From assembly GCF_003634555.1 (NCBI RefSeq), contig NZ_RBKS01000001.1:2480001-2544000 (forward strand): DNA of 64,000 nucleotides, in the 5' to 3' direction. Below, piece by piece: positions 25,168 through 38,353 of the stretch. The DNA comes from Frondihabitans australicus. Its GTDB lineage: Bacteria > Actinomycetota > Actinomycetes > Actinomycetales > Microbacteriaceae. The first letter of the stretch is position 1; each line of letters starts with the position of its first letter. Position numbers and translations under genes: made by a program. Under the pieces are notes generated by a model. The model was not told the origin of the DNA and searched no databases. It worked only from the letters and a program-made list of their open reading frames with translations.

Positions 25168-26778
25168 TCAGCCGTCGAAGGCGTCGAGGAACCGGTTGCG
25201 GAAGGCGCTCATCCGCCACAGCGGTGCGTCGGGAGACGGCAGCATGCCCGGCTGCCAGTGCCACGCCGAGATGGCGTGGAAGACCGACGGATCCTTCGAG
25301 ATGATGCTGATCGGCACGACGTGGTTCGACGAGTGGCCGCTCACCTCGGCGTTCGGCTGGTGGTCGCCGAGCACCACCAGGGCGAGGTTGGGATCGGTCG
25401 ACCGGTGCACGAACTGAAACAGCGAGGAGAGCGTGTACTGCACCGACTGGCCGTAGAGCTGCTGCACGTGCTGCGGGCTCTGCCACACGACGCTCGGCGG
25501 CAGACCCTCGCCGGGCTGCACGTCGTAGATCGAGCCGTCTCCGAGCTCGTTCCACGGCACGAGGTGCGGCAGCGGGGTCCACGGCGTGTGCGACGAGTCG
25601 AAGTCGATCTCGGCGAAGAGCGGCTTGTGTGCCGGCCGCAGCTCGTGTTGGTCGAACCAGTTCCAGGTGTACTGGTCGGGGATCCTGGCGTAGCTGAACC
25701 GCGGCCCGGCATACCCGACGTTCTGCGAGTTGAGCTGGGTGTCGTAGTGGTAGAACGACGAGCCGACCGGCCAGGGCGCGGCGTCCGACGGCACGTCGCT
25801 CACTGTGCGCCAGCCCGCTCGGCCGAACGCGTCGCTGAGCGTGAAGCGCGATCCCGAGGTGACCTCGTCGTAGCGCTGCTGCGAGTCGATCCACTGACCC
25901 GTCTGCAGCGTCGAGTGCGCCAGCCAGCTCACGCCGCCGTAGGTCGGCGAGTCGAGCCAGGCGCTCTGGTCGGAGTAGCCGTCGGCCGCGAGCTGCTTCT
26001 CGCCCGCCTTCAGCACCGAGTCGACGCCCTTCGAGAACGACGTGCCCTGCACGGCGACCTGCCCGTAGCTCTCGATGAAGGCGACGATGACGTCCTTGCC
26101 CCGGAGGCCCGTCAGCAGCTGCGAGGTCGGGGTGTCGGCGTAGCTGTCCGAGGCGCCGGACGCCTGGAACTCGGCCTGGCTCCGCTCGGTCGCCGCCGCC
26201 TGGTCGGAGCGCGACACGACCGTGTCGACGGAGTCGGCCGCGGCGACGGGCAGACCGGGCACGACCTGAGCGCCGACGAGGGCCACGATCGCCCACACCG
26301 CGGCGAGCGACGAGGTGCCGATCAACACGGCGCCCTGGCGGACCAGGCGGAGCACGCGGCCGAGACGCAGGAGCGACAGGGTCACCGCGACGACGGCGGC
26401 GGCGGACGCCGCGAGCAGGGCGGCGAGCACCCCGATCGCGGCTGCTGATCCTGCGGAGTCGCGCAGCACCCCGAAGCCGTCGGCCAGCTCGGGCCACCCG
26501 GTGATCACGTTGAAGCGTGCCCCGACCTCCTCGCGGAAGCCCCGGTCGAGCGCGGCGCTCAGCAGGGTCAGCAGCAGCAGGAGCCCGGCGATCGCCGCCA
26601 CGACCGCCCGAACCCGGCGCCACGGCAGAGCCGTCACGACCACCGTCGCGAGCGCCCCGTCGAGCGGGAGGCGCAGGAGCGCCAGGGGTGTGCCGTCGGC
26701 GATGACGCCGGCGCCGGTGGACGCGCCGAATACCACGACGGCCGCCAGCGTGGTCGCGATGACCGCTCTCGTTCTCAT
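25168..26778 (-). CDS. Membrane-anchored sulfatase/phosphoglycerol-transferase-fold protein
   Basis: A 536-residue protein. Residues 1 to about 190 hold four or five membrane helices; the rest is an extracytoplasmic alkaline-phosphatase/sulfatase-like domain. Visible marks are VIVAFIESYGQ (metal site with Glu-Ser), SWLAHSTLQTG with the candidate nucleophile Thr, FAEIDFDSSHTPW, and LVVLGDHQPN (metal-binding Asp-His). This is the layout of LtaS-like and EptA-like enzymes that move phospho-groups on lipids. AAGGAG precedes ATG 26778. It starts 10 bp after the RibD-like gene and is the last gene of the seven-gene operon, so it may modify the lipid product of that pathway at the cell surface. Confidence 0.82.
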   Translation of the reverse strand: MRTRAVIATTLAAVVVFGASTGAGVIADGTPLALLRLPLDGALATVVVTALPWRRVRAVVAAIAGLLLLLTLLSAALDRGFREEVGARFNVITGWPELADGFGVLRDSAGSAAAIGVLAALLAASAAAVVAVTLSLLRLGRVLRLVRQGAVLIGTSSLAAVWAIVALVGAQVVPGLPVAAADSVDTVVSRSDQAAATERSQAEFQASGASDSYADTPTSQLLTGLRGKDVIVAFIESYGQVAVQGTSFSKGVDSVLKAGEKQLAADGYSDQSAWLDSPTYGGVSWLAHSTLQTGQWIDSQQRYDEVTSGSRFTLSDAFGRAGWRTVSDVPSDAAPWPVGSSFYHYDTQLNSQNVGYAGPRFSYARIPDQYTWNWFDQHELRPAHKPLFAEIDFDSSHTPWTPLPHLVPWNELGDGSIYDVQPGEGLPPSVVWQSPQHVQQLYGQSVQYTLSSLFQFVHRSTDPNLALVVLGDHQPNAEVSGHSSNHVVPISIISKDPSVFHAISAWHWQPGMLPSPDAPLWRMSAFRNRFLDAFDG

Positions 26779-26788
26779 TCGTTCTCCT

Positions 26789-27514
26789 TCACGATCGGTG
26801 CTGTGCGGCGGCGGCCATCGGCTTCGGGCGAATGTCAGCTCGGGCCGACAGGGCGTAGCGCAGCAGCACCACGTCGCCGATCGGCGTCGAGTCGATCGGC
26901 GTCGCGCGGCCGGGGTCTCCCCACGGCGCCGGCCCGGGGCCGAGGAATCGGGGGGCTGCGGGGTCGCCGACGAAGATCGGCGCGACCGCCAGATGGAGCT
27001 CGTCGGCGACGCCGCCGGCGAGGAACTGCCGCAACGTCGTGCCGCCGCCCTCGACCATGAGGCGCTCGACTCCGCGATCGGCGAGGTCCGCCGCCAGCGC
27101 CCGAGGCGCGACCGTACGGCCGAGTCCGACGACGGCGGCGCGACGGCCGAGGAGGCGGCGGATGCGCGACGTCTCGGATCCTGGGCAGTAGACCAGCTTC
27201 CGCGCACCGTCGTCGGCGAAGAAGGCGGCGTCGGGATCGAGGTCCCCGCTGCGCGTGACGGTGACCTTGAGCGGCGTGGCCGGGGAGCCCTCGGCGAGGC
27301 GTCGCGCTCGACGGGCCGCGCTCCGGACGAGGAGGCGCGGGTTGTCGAGCCGGACGGTCCTGGCGCCGACGAGGATCGCGTCGCTGGTCGAGCGCACCTC
27401 GTCGACCCGGTCGAGGTCGGCCGCGTTCGAGAGGATCAGGCGGGGCGGCGCGGCGGTGTCGAGGTAGCCGTCGAGCGAGACGGCGCAGCTGAGCACGGTG
27501 TACGGGGTCGTCAC
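26789..27514 (-). CDS. RibD C-terminal/dihydrofolate-reductase-like pyrimidine reductase
   Basis: A 241-residue single-domain homologue of the reductase half of RibD, which reduces 5-amino-6-ribosylamino-pyrimidine phosphate with NADPH in riboflavin synthesis. Recognised by SCAVSLDGYLD at the start, SDAILVGARTVRLDNPRLLVR, and MVEGGGTTLRQFLAGGVADELHL. The deaminase domain of RibD is absent. The GTG start overlaps the upstream membrane-protein stop (GTGA). Because it sits beside a pterin-synthase homologue, it more likely reduces a pathway-specific pyrimidine or pteridine than serves riboflavin supply. Confidence 0.85.
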   Translation of the reverse strand: MTTPYTVLSCAVSLDGYLDTAAPPRLILSNAADLDRVDEVRSTSDAILVGARTVRLDNPRLLVRSAARRARRLAEGSPATPLKVTVTRSGDLDPDAAFFADDGARKLVYCPGSETSRIRRLLGRRAAVVGLGRTVAPRALAADLADRGVERLMVEGGGTTLRQFLAGGVADELHLAVAPIFVGDPAAPRFLGPGPAPWGDPGRATPIDSTPIGDVVLLRYALSARADIRPKPMAAAAQHRS

Positions 27515-28638
27515 GAGCGTGTGCCCCCGGTGGCGGACGTCGCGGCGGCACGGGCGGCGGAGGAAGCCGGTGCCGCGGGCGCTTCGGCGTCCGACCGTCG
27601 CTCGCCGTGAGCACGCAGGTGCAGAGCCACGAGGGCGACGGCCCCCGGCGCCACCGACAGCAGGGCCAGCACCCCGAACAGCGTCGACGCGGCGACGCCG
27701 GCGCCGTCACCCAGACCGGCGAGGGCGAAGAGGCCGGCCGATGCGCCCTCGCGTGGCCCCCATCCGCCGATGTTGACGGGCACGGCCGAGGCGACGAGCA
27801 CGGCGAGCGCGAGAGCCACGACCACGGGCGTCGGGGCCCGCACACCGACGGCGCGGGCTGCGACGGCGAACGTGGCGGCGTGGCAGGCCACGACGACTCC
27901 CGAGCTCAGTGCGACGACGGCCACGGTCGCAGGATCGGCGAGAGCCGCCCGCACCCGCGCCAGCTCTCTCGCGAGAGCTCCCCGCACCCGCCCGCTCGTC
28001 GCCACGGCCACAGCACCGGCGGCCGCGATCCCGGCCACGGCGACGGCCAGCGCCGCGAGCAAGAGGCCCGGTGCCGCGAGCAATCCGCCCGGCGCCGCGG
28101 GCAGCGATCCGCCACCCCAGGCGACGACGGCGACGGCTGCGACCGCCGCCATGACGATCTGGACGACCTGGCCCGCGACACGCTCGATCGCGACCGCCCG
28201 GATCGCGTCGGCGCGCCCGTCGGCCTCGGGCACGGGCACCCGTCGTCCGCCGGTTTCGGCAGCCCGGCCGGCCCTGCGACGCTCGTCGACGGCGCGCTGC
28301 ACGTCGCCGACGACGCCGCCGGGCAGCACGGCGTTGACGAACTGCGACCGGTAGTAGAGCAGGACGGCGCGGCGCCAGCCGAGGTCGACGCCGAGCCTCT
28401 GCGACACCGCCGCCCAGCGCCACGAGGCGGCGGCGGTCGAGACCGCCGTCAGGGCGAGCGCGACCACGACGGTCGTCGGCGAGACCCCGGCGAGACCGCG
28501 CTCGAACGGCGTGCCGCCGACCTTCAGGGCCAGGGCGAGCAGGATCGCGACCCCGACCGCGGGGCCGAGCAGTCTCCGCCAGAGAGGCGTCCGCGCGGGA
28601 CGCGCCGCCGCCTGCAGACGCACCGCCGCCCCGCTCAT
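27511..28638 (-). CDS. Lysylphosphatidylglycerol-synthase-type transmembrane protein (UPF0104)
   Basis: A 375-residue protein with about eight membrane helices matching the flippase-like half of MprF/AglD proteins. Family features are the cytosolic LLYYRSQFVNAVLPGGVVGDVQRA, an acidic/basic loop with RAVAIERVAGQ, and NIGGWGPREGASAGLFALAGL near the C-terminus. No lysyl-transferase domain is present. It overlaps its neighbours by 4 bases at both ends. In this operon it may flip a lipid-linked product across the membrane. Confidence 0.85.
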   Translation of the reverse strand: MSGAAVRLQAAARPARTPLWRRLLGPAVGVAILLALALKVGGTPFERGLAGVSPTTVVVALALTAVSTAAASWRWAAVSQRLGVDLGWRRAVLLYYRSQFVNAVLPGGVVGDVQRAVDERRRAGRAAETGGRRVPVPEADGRADAIRAVAIERVAGQVVQIVMAAVAAVAVVAWGGGSLPAAPGGLLAAPGLLLAALAVAVAGIAAAGAVAVATSGRVRGALARELARVRAALADPATVAVVALSSGVVVACHAATFAVAARAVGVRAPTPVVVALALAVLVASAVPVNIGGWGPREGASAGLFALAGLGDGAGVAASTLFGVLALLSVAPGAVALVALHLRAHGERRSDAEAPAAPASSAARAAATSATGGTRS

Positions 28639-29450
28639 CGCGGCCTCGCGAGGAGGTCGACGTGGTGGACGACCGCCGACAGCTCGCCCCGGGCTGCCTG
28701 GCCGCGCCGCAGGTCGGCGTAACCCGGCGCGGTCGTCGCGAGCGCCGGCTCCTGCTCGAGCGCGGCCCCGAGCCAGCCGTCGAGCCACTCGGACAGCAGC
28801 TGCGGCTGCCTCGCGTCGAGCCGCCAGAACGTCGAGGCGGAGTCGACCTGCCACCCCGCCTCGGTGACGAGGTGCCGCGTGAGGTCGGCGGCGTCGGGGC
28901 CGGCGAACCTGCGCCCGGCGACGTCGCGGCGCTGGTGGTCGGCGAACGCCCGCTCGAACTGGGGGTCGGCGGCGTGCGGGGGCTCCTGCTCCACCCTCCC
29001 TGTGACGCTCAGGCTGAGGAACGCCGGCACGCCCGCGCCGACGAGGGCGTCGACGATCGCGCGGAGATCGGCGACGGTGAGCACGTCGAGGAGCGCGGAC
29101 GCGGTGACCAGCCGGGCCCCGCGCAGGTCGGCGGCCTCGAGTCGCGACAGCAGCCCCAGCTCGCCGTGGGCGGCGACCCGCTGGCCTCGGCGCCCGAGCG
29201 GGCGCGGCTCGTGCAGGGCTCGGCGCAGGAGCGGCTCGTCGGCGTCGTGCAGGATCCAGGTCTGCTCGCCGTCGATCTGCGGCGCCAGCCAGCGCATCAT
29301 CGATCCGGTGCCGCTGCCGAGGTCGTGCACGACTCCCCCGCCGCGGACCAGGTCGGCGGCCGCGCGGGCGAGGTCGGTCGAGCGCGCGCGGGCGTCCTCG
29401 GGCTCGCGGAGGGCGAGCCAGTCGGCGGAGGCGTGGGCGGTCTCGGTCAT
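28635..29450 (-). CDS. Class I SAM-dependent methyltransferase
   Basis: A 271-residue enzyme with the SAM-binding glycine loop VVHDLGSGTGSMMRWL (about 39-54), an acidic end to strand 2 (WILHDADEPLL) and motif II/III segments (RLVTASALLDVLT, GVPAFLSLSVTGR). It is coupled on both sides by ATGA overlaps to the glycosyltransferase and the LPG-synthase-type membrane protein. It probably methylates the compound made by this operon; the acceptor atom cannot be predicted. Confidence 0.85.
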   Translation of the reverse strand: MTETAHASADWLALREPEDARARSTDLARAAADLVRGGGVVHDLGSGTGSMMRWLAPQIDGEQTWILHDADEPLLRRALHEPRPLGRRGQRVAAHGELGLLSRLEAADLRGARLVTASALLDVLTVADLRAIVDALVGAGVPAFLSLSVTGRVEQEPPHAADPQFERAFADHQRRDVAGRRFAGPDAADLTRHLVTEAGWQVDSASTFWRLDARQPQLLSEWLDGWLGAALEQEPALATTAPGYADLRRGQAARGELSAVVHHVDLLARPR

Positions 29451-30496
29451 GCCGGCACCTCGTCCCGGGCGCCTCGCGCGACGCGGGGCAGCGCCCGTAC
29501 GACGTCGGAGACGGTGTCGTCCCACGCGCGAGCCTCGTGACGGCGGTCTCGCGCGCCGGCGGCGAGCGCGTCGCGGAGATCCCGATCGCCGAGCCAGCGC
29601 CGGAGCGCCGCCGCGAGGGCGGGCACGTCGCCCGCGGGCACGCGCAGGGCCGCGTCGGCATGCCGAGCCGCTTCGACCAGGCCTCCGGCGTCGCTGACGA
29701 GCACGGGGATGCCCCGAGCCTGCGCCTCGGCGACGGCCATGCCGTAGCTCTCGGAGAGCGACGGCGCGACGACGAGGTCGGCTCGGTCGTACGCGCGGTC
29801 GAGGGCAGGGCCCGTGACGACGCCCGAGAACGTGAGCCGGTCGGCGATCGCGGTTGCGAGGGCGGCGGTGACGAGCGAGGAGGCGTACGCGGGGTCGGTG
29901 TCGGCGGATCCTGCGACCTCGAGGGTCCAGCCGGCGACGTCTCCGAGCGTGCCGAGGGCCGCCACGAGCGCGTGCTGCCCCTTGTGCTCGGCGAGCGTCC
30001 CGACGCACAGCAGGCGGCCGCCGCCCGGCGACAGCGCGGTCGTCGCCGCGAGCCGGTGCCGCTCGTCGACGCCCGGGCGAGCGACCGAGACGCGTTCGCG
30101 CCGGACCCCGTGGGCGACGAGGGCCGCCCTCGTCCACTCGCTCGTCGCGACGACTCCGTCGGCGACGCAGAACGCCGTCCACTCGGCCGGGGTGTGCGGC
30201 AGCATGTGCGCGAGCACGATCACGTGCGCCCGGCGCGTCAGCTCGACGAGATGGGCCGGGGCCCAGGAGCCGGCGAGCCCGTCGACGATCACCGTCCGCC
30301 CGCCCCGCAGACCCCGCACGGCCGCCGCCGCGCCTTCCGCGTCGACGGCGACCGTTTCGACGCGCAGCCCTGCCGCCCGCAGCCCGTCGCGGAGGCGGCG
30401 GTCGTAGAGGTTCCCGCCGCTCACGCGCTCGTCGTCGTCGATCGTCGCCGGGACGACGAAGGCGATGGAGTCCGAAAAACTCACCATGCCGCTCAT
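29447..30496 (-). CDS. Glycosyltransferase family 4
   Basis: A 349-residue GT-B fold retaining glycosyltransferase. The C-terminal donor-binding domain has [20 protein letters not shown] and the E-x7-E motif in [20 protein letters not shown]; the N-terminal acceptor domain has [17 protein letters not shown] 30496 overlaps the pterin-synthase-like gene stop and is preferred over the in-frame ATG three codons in. It likely adds a hexose to the operon product, possibly on a lipid carrier. Confidence 0.88.
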
Positions 30497-30894
30497 CGCG
30501 CCACCCTCCGCGCCCTCGAATAGCTCGCCCACGCGACGTGCGACTCGTGCAGCGTGACGGCGACCGTCTCGACCCGCGAGTCGCCGACCTCGTCGAGCGC
30601 GTCGGCCAGCCGGTCGGCGACGTGGCGGCAGAGCACCTCGGTGGTCGTGTTCACGCCGGTGAAGAGCGGCTCGTCGTCGAGGTTGCGGTAGCTCAGCACT
30701 CCGACGACTCCCGCGAGCGCGGCGGAAGCCCAGCCGATGTCGACGACCACCCCGTCGGCGTCGAGATCGGCGGCGCCGAACGACGCGTCGACGACGAAGG
30801 TGGCGCCGTGCAGTCGCTGGGCGGGGCCGAACGCCTCGCCGGTGAAGCTGTGGGCGATCATCATGTGGTCGCGGACGGTGACGGTGAAGCTCAC
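30493..30894 (-). CDS. 6-pyruvoyl-tetrahydropterin synthase/QueD homologue, divergent active site
   Basis: A 133-residue protein of the T-fold PTPS/QueD family, which rearranges dihydroneopterin triphosphate to 6-pyruvoyl- or 6-carboxy-tetrahydropterin. The fold is recognisable from [45 protein letters not shown] and [11 protein letters not shown]. Two usual residues differ: the second His of the zinc motif HGH is Ala (LHGAT), and the His of the LDHRNLN motif is Tyr (LSYRNLDD). This suggests altered chemistry or substrate. Start GTG 30894 overlaps the dehydrogenase stop; the downstream gene overlaps by 4 bases. Confidence 0.8.
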
Positions 30895-31871
30895 GGAGCA
30901 CTCCAGTCGATCGTGTGGCAGAGGGCGTTCAGGCGCCCGGAGGCGAGTGCCGCGAGGGCGTCGGGCAGCTCCTGCCACCCGCTCGTGCCGGTGAGCAGCG
31001 TGTCGAAGGCCGGGTCGCGCAGCAGGAGCAGAGCGAGAGCCAGCCGATCGCGCGTCGACCGGCTCCCCCGACGCCGCGCGGGCACCCGCCCGACCTGGCT
31101 CGCGCGGATGCTGAGGCGGCGGGAGTGGAAGTCCTCGCCGAGGCGCAGCGTGACCTCGCGGTCGCCGTACCAGCTCGCCTCGATCACCTCGCCCTCGTCG
31201 GCGACGAGGCGCAGGCCCAGCTGCAGGCCGTCGCCGGAGCCGCTGGCGTTGATCACAATGTCCTGGCCGGCGGGCGCGTCGTCGGGCGTCGCGAACCCCA
31301 CGCCGAGCGATCGGGCCAGGTCGCGCTTCGACTCGTCGACGTCGACGAGAGTGACCTCGACCCCGGGCAGAGCACGCAGGAGCCGGCAGATCGCCGCCCC
31401 GATCATCCCGCCCCCGATCACGGCGATCCGGTCTCCGACCAGCGGTTCGGCGTCCCAGAGCACGGTCACCGCGGTCTCCACCGCGCCCGCCAGGACGGCC
31501 CGTCGCGCCGGCACGCCGTCGGGCAGCGGCAGCACGCCGGAAGCGGGCACGACGTACCGCGACTGGTGCGGAGAGAGGCAGAACACTTCGCGGCCCATCA
31601 GCGCGGCCGGCCCCTGCTCGACGACGCCGACGTTCAGGTAGCCGTACATCACGGGGCCCGGGAACTCGCCGCGCTGGAACGGCGCCCGCATGCGCTCGCG
31701 CTCGCTCTCGGGCACGCGCCCGGTGAACACCGTCGTCTCGGTGCCGCGGCTGATGCCGGTCCAGAGGGTGCGCACGACCACGTCGCCGGGCGCAGGATCC
31801 GGCAGCTCGACCGTCTGGAGCGAGCCTCGGCCGGGCGCGTCGACGACGAATGCGGTGGCCGTCTGCGTCAT
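30891..31871 (-). CDS. Zinc-free MDR-type dehydrogenase
   Basis: A 326-residue medium-chain dehydrogenase/reductase, in a branch resembling bacteriochlorophyllide dehydrogenase BchC. It has [17 protein letters not shown] near residue 40, the nucleotide loop [17 protein letters not shown] and LVDVDESKR for NAD(P). The four-cysteine structural zinc loop is absent. GAGGGGAGGAAG precedes ATG 31871. It is the first gene of the minus-strand seven-gene operon and diverges from the CDP-alcohol transferase gene. It probably reduces or oxidizes a side-chain carbonyl of the pteridine-like intermediate. Confidence 0.83.
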
Positions 31872-31897
31872 CGTCTTCCTCCCCTCGATCGCGCCTG

Positions 31898-31972
31898 CCG
31901 TGTGAACCTTCGGCGGCTGCACAGCGTGGTGATAGCAGGGACACGAGACGGAGGCGGGCATGGTTCACACGG
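31898..31972. promoter_or_regulatory. Perfect 11-bp inverted repeat across divergent promoter
   Basis: CCGTGTGAACC (31898-31908) and GGTTCACACGG (31962-31972) are exact inverted copies, 64 bp centre to centre, about six helical turns. One lies 27 bp upstream of the minus-strand operon and the other covers the start codon of the plus-strand CDP-alcohol transferase. They bracket the only promoter region of both units and are probably sites for one regulator. Confidence 0.65.
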
Positions 31973-32715
31973 GATCGGGCGCGATCGCCCTGGTCGTCGG
32001 GGCGGTCGCCGCCGCGACGTGCGTCGCCGTCGCCGGCCTCCTTCTCACCCGCGGACTGCGGCGGCGGGGCGCCCGGCGGCTGGGCGCGGCGAACACCGTG
32101 ACCAGCGTGCGTGCCCTGCTGGGGGCGGGAACGACGGGCCTCGTGGGGGCGGGGATGGTGGTGCCGGTGGCGCCCCCGATCCTGCTGGCCGTGGTGGTCC
32201 CCGCGCTGCTGCTCGACGGCCTCGACGGGTGGGTGGCGCGGCGGACCGGCACCGTGAGCGAGCTGGGCGCGCGCTACGACATGGAGGTCGACGCCTTCCT
32301 TCTGCTCGTGCTGAGCGTCGACGTCGCCCGCGACCTCGGGCCGTGGGTGCTCGCGATCGGCCTGATGCGATACGCGTTCGTCGCGGCGTCCTGGCTGCTG
32401 CCGTGGATGGGCGCGCCGCTGCCGTTCCGGTACTGGCGGAAGGTCGCCGCCGCCGCGCAGGGGGTCGCCCTCGCGGTGGCGGCATCGCGGCTGCTGCCCG
32501 GGCTCGACGTCGTGCTCGTCGCGCTGGCGCTCTCCCTGCTCGTCGAGTCGTTCGGTCGCGATGTGCTCTGGCTCGCCCGCCGCCGCCCGTCGCGCGTCGC
32601 CCGTAGGCTCGGAGCATGGCGCAGGACGGATTCGGCACGATGGCCGAGGATTACGTCAAGATCCTCTGGAACGCCGAGGAGTGGGCCGGCGACTCCCCCA
32701 CCACCAACGAGATAG
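31960..32715 (+). CDS. CDP-alcohol phosphatidyltransferase family membrane protein
   Basis: A 251-residue membrane enzyme with about six helices that moves a phospho-alcohol or phosphatidyl group from a CDP donor. The full family motif is present as D86-x2-D89-G90-x2-A93-R94-x8-G103-x3-D107-x3-D111 (from [12 protein letters not shown]). The last 34 residues overlap the next gene by 100 bp and are Arg/Thr/Ser/Pro-rich, unlike the family, so the functional protein probably ends near 32615. It diverges from the pterin-like operon and likely attaches the polar compound to lipid or makes its lipid carrier. Confidence 0.85.
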
Positions 32716-33323
32716 CCGCTCGGCTCGGCGTCGCCGCCCCGACCGTGTCGGGCAACCTGCGCCGCCTCGCCCGCGAGGGCCTCATCGACTACGAGCCCTA
32801 CGGCCGCGCCACCCTCACCGACGCCGGCCGCACCCTGGGCGCCGACGTCGTGAGACGGCACCGCCTTCTCGAGACCTTCCTCGTCGAGCATCTCGGCTAC
32901 GGCTGGGACGAAGTGCACGACGAGGCCGAGGTGCTCGAGCACGCCGTGTCCGACCGGCTCCTGGCCGTCATCGACCAGGAGCTCGGATACCCCGACCACG
33001 ATCCCCATGGCGATCCGATCCCCCGCCCGGGTAGCACCCACCCCGAGGGCAGGCGGCTGCGCGACGTCGAGCCGGGCCGCACCGTCGTCGTGGCCCGCGT
33101 CTCCGACCACGAGCCGGAGCTGCTCCGCTACCTCGCCGGGCTCACGATCGGCGTCGGCACGCGCATCACGGTCGAGGCCCGGCACGACTTCGCCGGCTCG
33201 ATGACGATCGTCATCGGCGGGTCGGAGCGGGCTCCTGCGTCGGCGCCGACTCCGACGACACGGACGGAGCTGGCGTTCCCGGCAGCGAACGCGATGTGGG
33301 TTCGCGACGGAACGGAGCCGTGA
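32616..33323 (+). CDS. DtxR/MntR-family metal-dependent regulator
   Basis: A 235-residue iron- or manganese-activated repressor. The winged helix is at about 10-70 ([23 protein letters not shown]), the dimerization and metal-binding domain at about 75-145 ([18 protein letters not shown] and the HDPHGDPIP metal-site region), and an FeoA/SH3-like domain follows ([15 protein letters not shown]). It overlaps the CDP-alcohol transferase gene by 100 bp and the convergent antiporter gene by 113 bp. It probably regulates metal uptake or efflux, perhaps including the neighbouring antiporter. Confidence 0.9.
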
Positions 33324-37966: not shown

Positions 37967-38353
37967 TCAGACCGTCTGCGTGCGGCGAAGGCCCAGCCCG
38001 GCGGTGATCGCCAGCACGACGACGCCGATCGCCTCGATCAGCACCGTCTCGGGCACCAGCGTGAAGGTCCAGACCTCGGTGATGCCGAACAGGCCGACCG
38101 TGAGGGCCAGCAGAAGGGCCAGCAGGCTGACGACGTCGAAGGCCAGGCCCAGGAGCAGCGCCGCCCTCAGCAGCCCACCCCGAGCCGCCAGCACACCGAC
38201 CCCGAGCACCACCCCGGCGATCGCGTTCAGGATGAAGAGCACGCCGAGGGTGCCGCCGACCCCGTCGAACACGAGGAACAGGTGGATCAGCCCCACCGCG
38301 AGCAGGACGATGCCGCTGACGATGCGCAGCGTGCGAAGTGTGGTTCCGGTCAT
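37967..38353 (-). CDS. Four-helix membrane protein
   Basis: A 128-residue protein with four predicted membrane helices (SGIVLLAVGLIHLFLVFDG, GVLFILNAIAGVVLGVGVLAA, LLGLAFDVVSLLALLLAL, LIEAIGVVVLAITAGLGL). No family is identified with confidence. ATG 38353 is the natural start; the longer open frame above covers the repeat-rich noncoding region. Confidence 0.7.
   Translation of the reverse strand: MTGTTLRTLRIVSGIVLLAVGLIHLFLVFDGVGGTLGVLFILNAIAGVVLGVGVLAARGGLLRAALLLGLAFDVVSLLALLLALTVGLFGITEVWTFTLVPETVLIEAIGVVVLAITAGLGLRRTQTV

Follow-up and report, generated by a model that had tools for sequence, protein, structure and literature searches.

A conserved actinobacterial gene cluster in Frondihabitans australicus, with a probable GTP-derived precursor and a possible phospholipid-linked product

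Introduction

What is made by the eight genes found at positions 25168-32715 of a 64,000-nucleotide stretch of the Frondihabitans australicus genome (NZ_RBKS01000001.1; the whole stretch is called the window here)? Seven of them lie on the minus strand and encode, in order of transcription, an MDR dehydrogenase, a PTPS-like protein, a GT4 glycosyltransferase, a methyltransferase, an LPG_synthase_TM membrane protein (LPG), a RibD_C-family protein and, beginning 10 bp beyond RibD_C, an LtaS-type protein. The first six are joined by a 4-bp overlap at each of the five junctions (in order GTGA, ATGA, ATGA, ATGA and GTGA). The eighth gene, for a CDP-alcohol phosphatidyltransferase (CDP-AP), is divergent from MDR. 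This layout of six overlapping genes, a seventh close behind and a divergent partner was given in a preliminary description of the locus, and both its coordinates and its junctions were confirmed. That description did not recognize the set as a characterized pathway. Our literature search, with its partial coverage, likewise found no paper on the gene set.

Conservation and linkage across actinomycetes

Relatives of the PTPS-like gene were found at no fewer than 553 loci in a collection with one genome per species, and the best 80 (L042-L121) were analyzed. All belong to Actinomycetota, for example Streptomyces, Micromonospora (27 loci), Pseudonocardia and Microbacterium, and they span 23 taxonomic labels, several being metagenome-assembled genomes named to family, order or phylum only. 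Families were counted with profiles made from the same 80 loci that they afterwards scored. Throughout, a gene called absent is one below the profile thresholds within the fetched stretch, except where a whole genome is named, and several loci end at contig ends (e.g., L085 and L094, and L158 in a later set). PTPS and GT4 were each found in all 80 loci, MDR in 79, LPG in 78, the methyltransferase in 72, CDP-AP in 71, RibD_C in 62, GTP cyclohydrolase II (GCH2) also in 62, the LtaS-type gene in 42 and a creatininase-family gene in 25.

PTPS adjoins GT4 in 80/80 loci and MDR adjoins PTPS in 74, the exceptions being five rearranged Lentzea loci and L094 at its contig end. The core order PTPS-GT4-(methyltransferase)-LPG is kept in 78 of the 80, including 11/11 from Streptomyces; the methyltransferase was not found in eight loci, one of these cut short by its contig. 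Since other recurrent neighbor families reach at most 22/80 loci (the top one being the ABC ATPase superfamily), this linkage is not general synteny. The preliminary description had made its proposal depend on linkage outside this strain, and such linkage exists across all 23 labels.

A further 20 loci were taken from 18 genomes of the window's own family, Microbacteriaceae, together with G008 and G204, and all eight families were present in 14 of them. Among the incomplete ones, L149 lacks the methyltransferase, L158 lies on a short contig, and L142-L144, from three small genomes, lack the LtaS-type gene. These three keep seven of the eight genes (CDP-AP, LPG, GT4, MDR, PTPS, methyltransferase and RibD_C) on a single strand, in assemblies of which two are ~1.1 Mb (78 and 84% complete) and one is 1.8 Mb. 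Additional genes within the cluster are one for an FkbM methyltransferase in L142 and one for an inositol monophosphatase in L144. As two other genomes of the window's genus have no PTPS match, the distribution is patchy. We are close to certain that the eight genes represent one conserved actinobacterial pathway unit.

The CDP-AP and LtaS-type pair

The CDP-AP motif D-x2-D-G-x2-A-R-x8-G-x3-D-x3-D is complete in 89/90 aligned rows, the remaining row being a gap. The LtaS-type protein had been labelled as sulfatase-fold in the preliminary description. The window protein matches no Pfam family, and its L063 homolog reaches 22.6 bits against the Sulfatase cut-off of 25. The AlphaFold2 model of the window protein (pLDDT 82.8, pTM 0.79) finds LtaP/LtaS first in Foldseek (E ~1e-8), followed by MCR-1, GacH and EptC; sulfatases appear only from rank 21 onwards, and a true sulfatase identity was rejected on this ranking. 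These matches are at superfamily level (TM-scores ~0.3-0.6; 10-17% identity in the top 20). Among 58 aligned rows, E236 is conserved in 57, T279 in 58, and D472 and H473 in 56 each, the rest being gaps; these four probably correspond to the metal and nucleophile residues of LtaS. The window protein thus shares the predicted fold, the membrane anchor and a conserved E-T-D-H set with LtaS, GacH and EptC, and differs from them in its low identity and in being paired, or in frame, with its own CDP-AP. Judged from the model, it most resembles the membrane-anchored phosphoglycerol/phosphoethanolamine transferase type.

Does this pair belong with the core? In five loci (Salinispora, Marmoricola, Knoellia, Nocardioides and Geodermatophilus) CDP-AP and the LtaS-type protein are encoded in one open reading frame. 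In six Micromonospora loci without both near the core, the LtaS-type gene lies elsewhere in 6/6 genomes, with CDP-AP beside it. Of the 38 loci lacking an LtaS-type gene, 12 were chosen for a whole-genome check, which found it elsewhere in 11. Among 150 genomes of the window's family, it is present in 15/19 that are PTPS-positive and 0/131 that are PTPS-negative. Of the four PTPS-positive genomes without it, three are the small genomes and the fourth is G349, with a cluster contig of 8.3 kb. Among 296 genomes of the phylum, it occurs in 7/7 with a PTPS match above 150 bits and 0/289 others, and it was not found in the 34 phylum genomes with weaker PTPS matches. At most five candidates per genome were scored in the phylum set and nine in the family set; scoring all candidates in 20 phylum genomes gave agreeing results (6/6 with strong, 0/2 with intermediate and 0/12 without PTPS matches). 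Because of this co-occurrence, the shared reading frames and the pairing elsewhere in the genome, CDP-AP and the LtaS-type gene belong with the core even where they are unlinked. The LtaS-type protein can be dispensable, as the small genomes show.

In three Streptomyces-like genomes (G161, G128 and G182; L170, L171, L172, L175 and L176), the LtaS-type gene is present twice at a distance from the core; the two copies in G161 are adjacent and convergent. The genes flanking unlinked LtaS-type genes in Streptomyces-like genomes differed and offered no clue.

LtaS, GacH and EptC take phospho-headgroups from phospholipids and pass them to acceptors on the outer side of the membrane. Because LtaS-type enzymes act in this way, a phospholipid-linked product is the leading reading, which we put at even or slightly better. 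The membrane and lipid link of the preliminary description is strengthened by the pair, while the lipid anchor or pigment that it went on to propose stays conjectural.

The strongest competitor is a soluble or secreted pteridine glycoside, serving as a cofactor, signal or photoprotectant and made by the core, with CDP-AP and the LtaS-type protein as a co-inherited but separate envelope modification. None of the 80 loci is without PTPS or GT4, whereas nine stretches lack CDP-AP and 38 the LtaS-type gene, and only 1/11 Streptomyces loci has the latter within its stretch. It was not found anywhere in G325, G375 and G436 (small genomes retaining CDP-AP), in G008 and G028 (PTPS 111 and 95 bits), or in the one remaining genome of the 12 checked, a Micromonospora. 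The sequence of CDP-AP does not reveal its acceptor, and L160 (G008) yielded no more than MDR, PTPS and a weak GT4. All of these points weigh against a phospholipid-linked product of the whole set. Against a separate modification stand the family and phylum counts given above, in which the LtaS-type gene was found only in core-bearing genomes, and the three small genomes, where CDP-AP and the flippase-like LPG gene stand in line with the core. We regard the soluble product as unlikely, if deserving of serious attention.

A probable GTP-derived precursor

What would the precursor be? The commonest cluster gene that the window does not have, GCH2, points to GTP. In two Pseudonocardia loci (L092 and L095), GCH2 and RibD_C share one reading frame; both domains exceed the Pfam cut-off in L092, and the GCH2 part of L095 looks degraded. 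The window RibD_C protein has no deaminase domain by Pfam. Among solved structures it matches 5xv5 (E 9.9e-27), which we take to be a Methanosarcina reductase, and 6p8c (E 9.7e-21), named 2,5-diamino-6-ribosylamino-pyrimidinone phosphate reductase. Its top NCBIfam match, TIGR01508, scores 115.9 bits against a cut-off of 186.45, and the others listed are also below their cut-offs. By these comparisons the protein scores best with diamino-ribosylamino-pyrimidinone phosphate reductases of the archaeal type and is placed closest to them. In several Streptomyces loci and in the small genomes (L118, L142, L144 and similar loci), the window type is replaced by a second RibD_C subtype, whose N-terminus is longer in those inspected.

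The GCH2 sequences themselves fall into two kinds. In alignments, the solved RibA proteins 2bz0, 4i14 and 4rl4 have a Tyr in a KxxAY stretch. At this position, the 25 loci with a creatininase-family gene have Met (13) or His (12), and the 37 loci without one have Tyr (36) or Ser (1, in L095). Met at the Tyr position presumably makes SCO6655, a GCH2 of Streptomyces coelicolor, stop at the formylated intermediate. The combination of a Met/His GCH2 with a creatininase fits a first step that is split into ring opening and subsequent deformylation. The creatininase-family enzyme BrbF is described as deformylating the formylated intermediate of GCH2 (PMC9478397).

The genome of F. australicus has a single GCH2 (C1:288946-289431), which retains the Tyr, and one creatininase-family match, far from the cluster. 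As this is the only GCH2 in the genome, its RibA must supply the precursor. Nine RibD_C matches were found in the genome, the best of which adjoins the only GCH2 (RibA), and the cluster RibD_C is distant from these paralogs (≤49 bits). The preliminary description had named a second finding that would overturn it, namely the PTPS and RibD homologs being the sole riboflavin and folate enzymes of the organism; this was rejected, since separate RibA, RibD, FolE and FolB matches lie elsewhere in the genome, outside the cluster. Also in the window genome, a RibD_C-family gene follows GTP cyclohydrolase I by ~1.1 kb on the same strand (G000:C1:3503102-3505382; L122, L004).

An inositol-monophosphatase-type gene adjoins the cluster in four loci (L144, L072, L111 and L116; Pfam-checked in L144, L116 and L072), a fifth match, in L079, being distant. 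The adjoining gene would suit the removal of a polyol phosphate.

Not everything speaks for GTP. The window cluster has neither GCH2 nor creatininase, and GCH2 is in 0/9 of the Microbacteriaceae-named loci among the 80. In 18/80 loci, some of them cut short, the fetched stretch showed no RibD_C, and the protein is divergent in 6/11 Streptomyces loci and in the small genomes. On the GCH2 tree, creatininase changes twice and the residue three times, with one or two independent pairs; the association is suggestive only and has no statistical weight of its own. A distant BrbF homolog did not complement in the BrbF study (PMC9478397). With these points counted against it, a start from a GTP-derived pyrimidine, an intermediate of the riboflavin pathway, is still what we consider probable, and the GTP-derived start of the preliminary description is supported by the GCH2 genes and the two shared frames.

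Another account of the substrate is a pathway to a glycophospholipid or a teichoic-type polymer; the PTPS-like and RibD_C proteins would then use a substrate other than a GTP-derived pyrimidine, e.g., a sugar or another amine. By general family knowledge, GT4, flippase-like, CDP-AP and LtaS-type proteins are the usual kit for envelope glycopolymers; moreover, the zinc site of the PTPS-like protein is lost and RibD_C-type proteins are diverse, as the nine matches in one genome illustrate. The 62 loci with GCH2, two of them with RibD_C in the same frame, argue otherwise, as does a T-fold Glu (E117) kept in 101/101 rows of PTPS-like proteins, for which a ring-anchoring role is presumed. We consider this polymer pathway improbable.

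A zinc-less member of the PTPS family

The PTPS-like protein is the sole PF01242 match in the window genome, and its alignment of 101 sequences departs from the known T-fold enzymes. It has the sequence family and one conserved Glu in common with QueD/PTPS enzymes. Its zinc triad is incomplete: H15 and H29, the first two His of the zinc site, are invariant in 101/101 sequences, while the third is replaced by Ala31 and the catalytic Cys position is Ala25 in all of them. H10, D52, E86 and E117 are also invariant, the last being presumably the ring-anchoring Glu of the T-fold site. Seven distant Actinomycetota PTPS proteins that were aligned all keep the third His (HGH). At the Cys column they have Cys in 2/7 (L026 and L039) and Ala in 5/7, so the loss of the Cys alone is not special. 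The closest structure is PDB 3d7j, Streptomyces SCO6650, deposited as uncharacterized (E 3.3e-46 over residues 3-128). The SCO6650 structure paper is said to have described a pterin-like pocket, with neither zinc nor PTPS activity.

An ordinary QueD-type 7-deazapurine or tetrahydropterin pathway, for which the PF01242 match (81.6 bits) could be read, is very improbable, and the QueD route was rejected, because the QueD and 6PTHBS cut-offs are missed (31.2 of 89.25 bits and 23.9 of 125.5 bits) and the zinc His and Cys are lost throughout; the "deazapurine-like" product of the preliminary description has to be given up with it. With the QueD reaction unlikely, a different reaction on a related heterocycle would be left for the PTPS-like protein. 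Three other families recur in at least 12 loci and were identified by eye as an ABC ATPase, a metal P-type ATPase and a small membrane protein, no QueC/QueE model search being made.

Proposed pathway

Linkage, co-occurrence, shared reading frames, residue losses and predicted folds are the basis of an overall scheme in which a ribityl-pyrimidine or pteridine, branching off riboflavin synthesis, would be assembled, modified and coupled to a phospholipid. We give this scheme a modest preference over its alternatives taken together. Its first two steps are likely. First, GCH2 would open GTP to 2,5-diamino-6-ribosylamino-4(3H)-pyrimidinone 5'-phosphate. Many relatives would use a dedicated GCH2 for this, and some of these enzymes probably stop at the formylated intermediate, which a creatininase-family formamidase would deformylate; in the window genome the single RibA would supply the pyrimidine. 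Second, RibD_C, going by its sequence relatives, would reduce the ribosyl to a ribityl chain.

The later steps, their order and a lipid that carries the pyrimidine or pteridine are inferred. In a third step, the zinc-less T-fold protein and the MDR dehydrogenase may convert the pyrimidine, presumably to a pteridine-type ring. The ring compound could then be decorated by the GT4 protein and, optionally, the methyltransferase. In the fifth step, CDP-AP would couple a CDP-activated lipid with a polyol or its phosphate. Transport of the product through the membrane would fall to the flippase-like protein, and outside the cell the LtaS-type enzyme would transfer or trim the phospho-headgroup. The gene set would in this way define a route to a product, consisting of the proposed order of enzymes and the outlying CDP-AP and LtaS-type pair.

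A more specific version can be offered tentatively, and we doubt it more than we believe it: the product may be a glycosylated ribityl-pteridine phospholipid and as such represent a membrane lipid class not described before. The ribityl chain of the GTP-derived heterocycle, or its phosphate, would be the polyol acceptor of CDP-AP; the product would be flipped, and the LtaS-type enzyme would pass the pterin headgroup to an extracellular acceptor. Phosphatidylinositol phosphate synthases use inositol phosphate analogously. If true, actinomycetes would hold a pterin covalently outside the cytoplasm, with a logic comparable to that of flavinylation.

Relation to known systems

The enzyme kinds of the early steps are not new. 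In the riboflavin branch of RibA, BrbF or ArfB, and an archaeal-type reductase (ArfC, Rib7), the same three occur: GCH2, a creatininase-family formamidase and a RibD_C reductase. The window differs from that branch in that its RibD_C protein is without the deaminase domain and RibA and RibD matches occur separately in the genome.

The nearest known locus is SCO6650-SCO6655 of S. coelicolor, to whose first member, SCO6650 (3d7j), the window PTPS-like protein matches. The 2006 work of Spoonamore reportedly dealt with three S. coelicolor GCH2 proteins, and to our knowledge neither it nor the SCO6650 structure paper established a pathway. Streptomyces loci of our set, e.g., L089, L096, L109 and L121, have the order PTPS, GT4, methyltransferase, LPG, creatininase, GCH2. 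This order fits SCO6650-SCO6655 if SCO6655 is the GCH2, and it is listed as GTP cyclohydrolase II in an S. coelicolor metabolic-switch study (PMC2853524). The window differs in two respects: RibD_C and the LtaS-type gene stand in line with the other genes, and GCH2 and creatininase are missing. By gene order SCO6652 would be the methyltransferase; as a "hypothetical protein" it is up by log2 4.3 and 4.1 in the second mycelium at 48 and 72 h in another study (PMC3610822).

Only incidental mentions of SCO6650-SCO6655 were found in the literature, and 3D7J in none of the papers found. The search, whose coverage of subscription journals was thin, yielded no publication about the gene set and none about a pterin lipid, so that absence from print is not established. 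As far as found, the cluster is uncharacterized as a pathway and its product is without a report. The proposed pathway would account for the extra GCH2 in Streptomyces and for a zinc-less PTPS-like protein that stands as "uncharacterized" in the PDB.

Gene organization and individual proteins

The coordinates of the cluster are collected in Table 1. Five of the eight families pass their Pfam cut-off (PTPS, Glycos_transf_1, LPG_synthase_TM, RibD_C and CDP-OH_P_transf), two fall below it, MDR narrowly and the methyltransferase, and the LtaS-type protein is without any Pfam match.

Table 1. Features of the cluster in the window. Start codons are approximate, as are those from the greedy gene caller used for the relatives' loci and the LtaS-type neighborhoods; the 88-bp spacing takes the ATG at 31871 as the MDR start.
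Feature	Position	Strand	Evidence
CDP-AP, divergent partner	31960-32715	+	PF01066 46.3 bits (cut-off 22)
Divergent intergenic region, 88 bp, between two transcription units	31872-31959	.	GGAGG-like sites ahead of both starts
MDR-type dehydrogenase, distantly BchC-like	30891-31871	-	PF00107 (ADH_zinc_N) E 7.6e-07
PTPS-like T-fold protein, SCO6650 type	30493-30894	-	PF01242 81.6 bits (cut-off 22.4); PDB 3d7j
GT4-type glycosyltransferase	29447-30496	-	PF00534 (Glycos_transf_1) 93.4 bits; EX7E motif
Class I S-adenosylmethionine methyltransferase, tailoring	28635-29450	-	predicted fold, conservation
Flippase-like membrane protein (LPG)	27511-28638	-	PF03706 (LPG_synthase_TM) 111 bits
RibD_C-family reductase	26789-27514	-	PF01872 125.3 bits
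Membrane-anchored LtaS/EptC-type phosphotransferase, alkaline phosphatase superfamily	25168-26778	-	predicted fold, conserved residues

The MDR protein reaches 29.6 bits for ADH_zinc_N, against a cut-off of 31.8, and its best NCBIfam model is BchC at 57.8 bits, where the equivalog cut-off of 291.25 is not reached. The EX7E motif of the GT4 protein is present as ESYGMAVAE. The methyltransferase scores 17.6 in Pfam, against a cut-off of 27; its AlphaFold2 model has a pLDDT of 94.5, all 50 listed Foldseek matches are methyltransferases or methyltransferase-like, and its GxGxG motif is conserved. Most of the protein labels in the preliminary description held, with two changes. Its sulfatase-fold protein becomes an LtaS/EptC-type phosphotransferase, and its "LPG-synthase-type" protein keeps only the flippase-like membrane part: PF03706 covers residues 23-330 of 375 with no further Pfam domain, and a lysyl-phosphatidylglycerol synthase identity was rejected.

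Two neighboring genes may be mentioned. A gene for an MntR/DtxR-type regulator (32616-33323, plus strand) overlaps the 3' end of CDP-AP by 76-100 bp, depending on the start codon. A small membrane protein of 128 amino acids and no Pfam family is encoded at 37967-38353 on the minus strand and has homologs in 11/80 related loci; in Microbacterium these mostly lie directly past CDP-AP and in the window ~5 kb off, and this protein is possibly a further member of the cluster.

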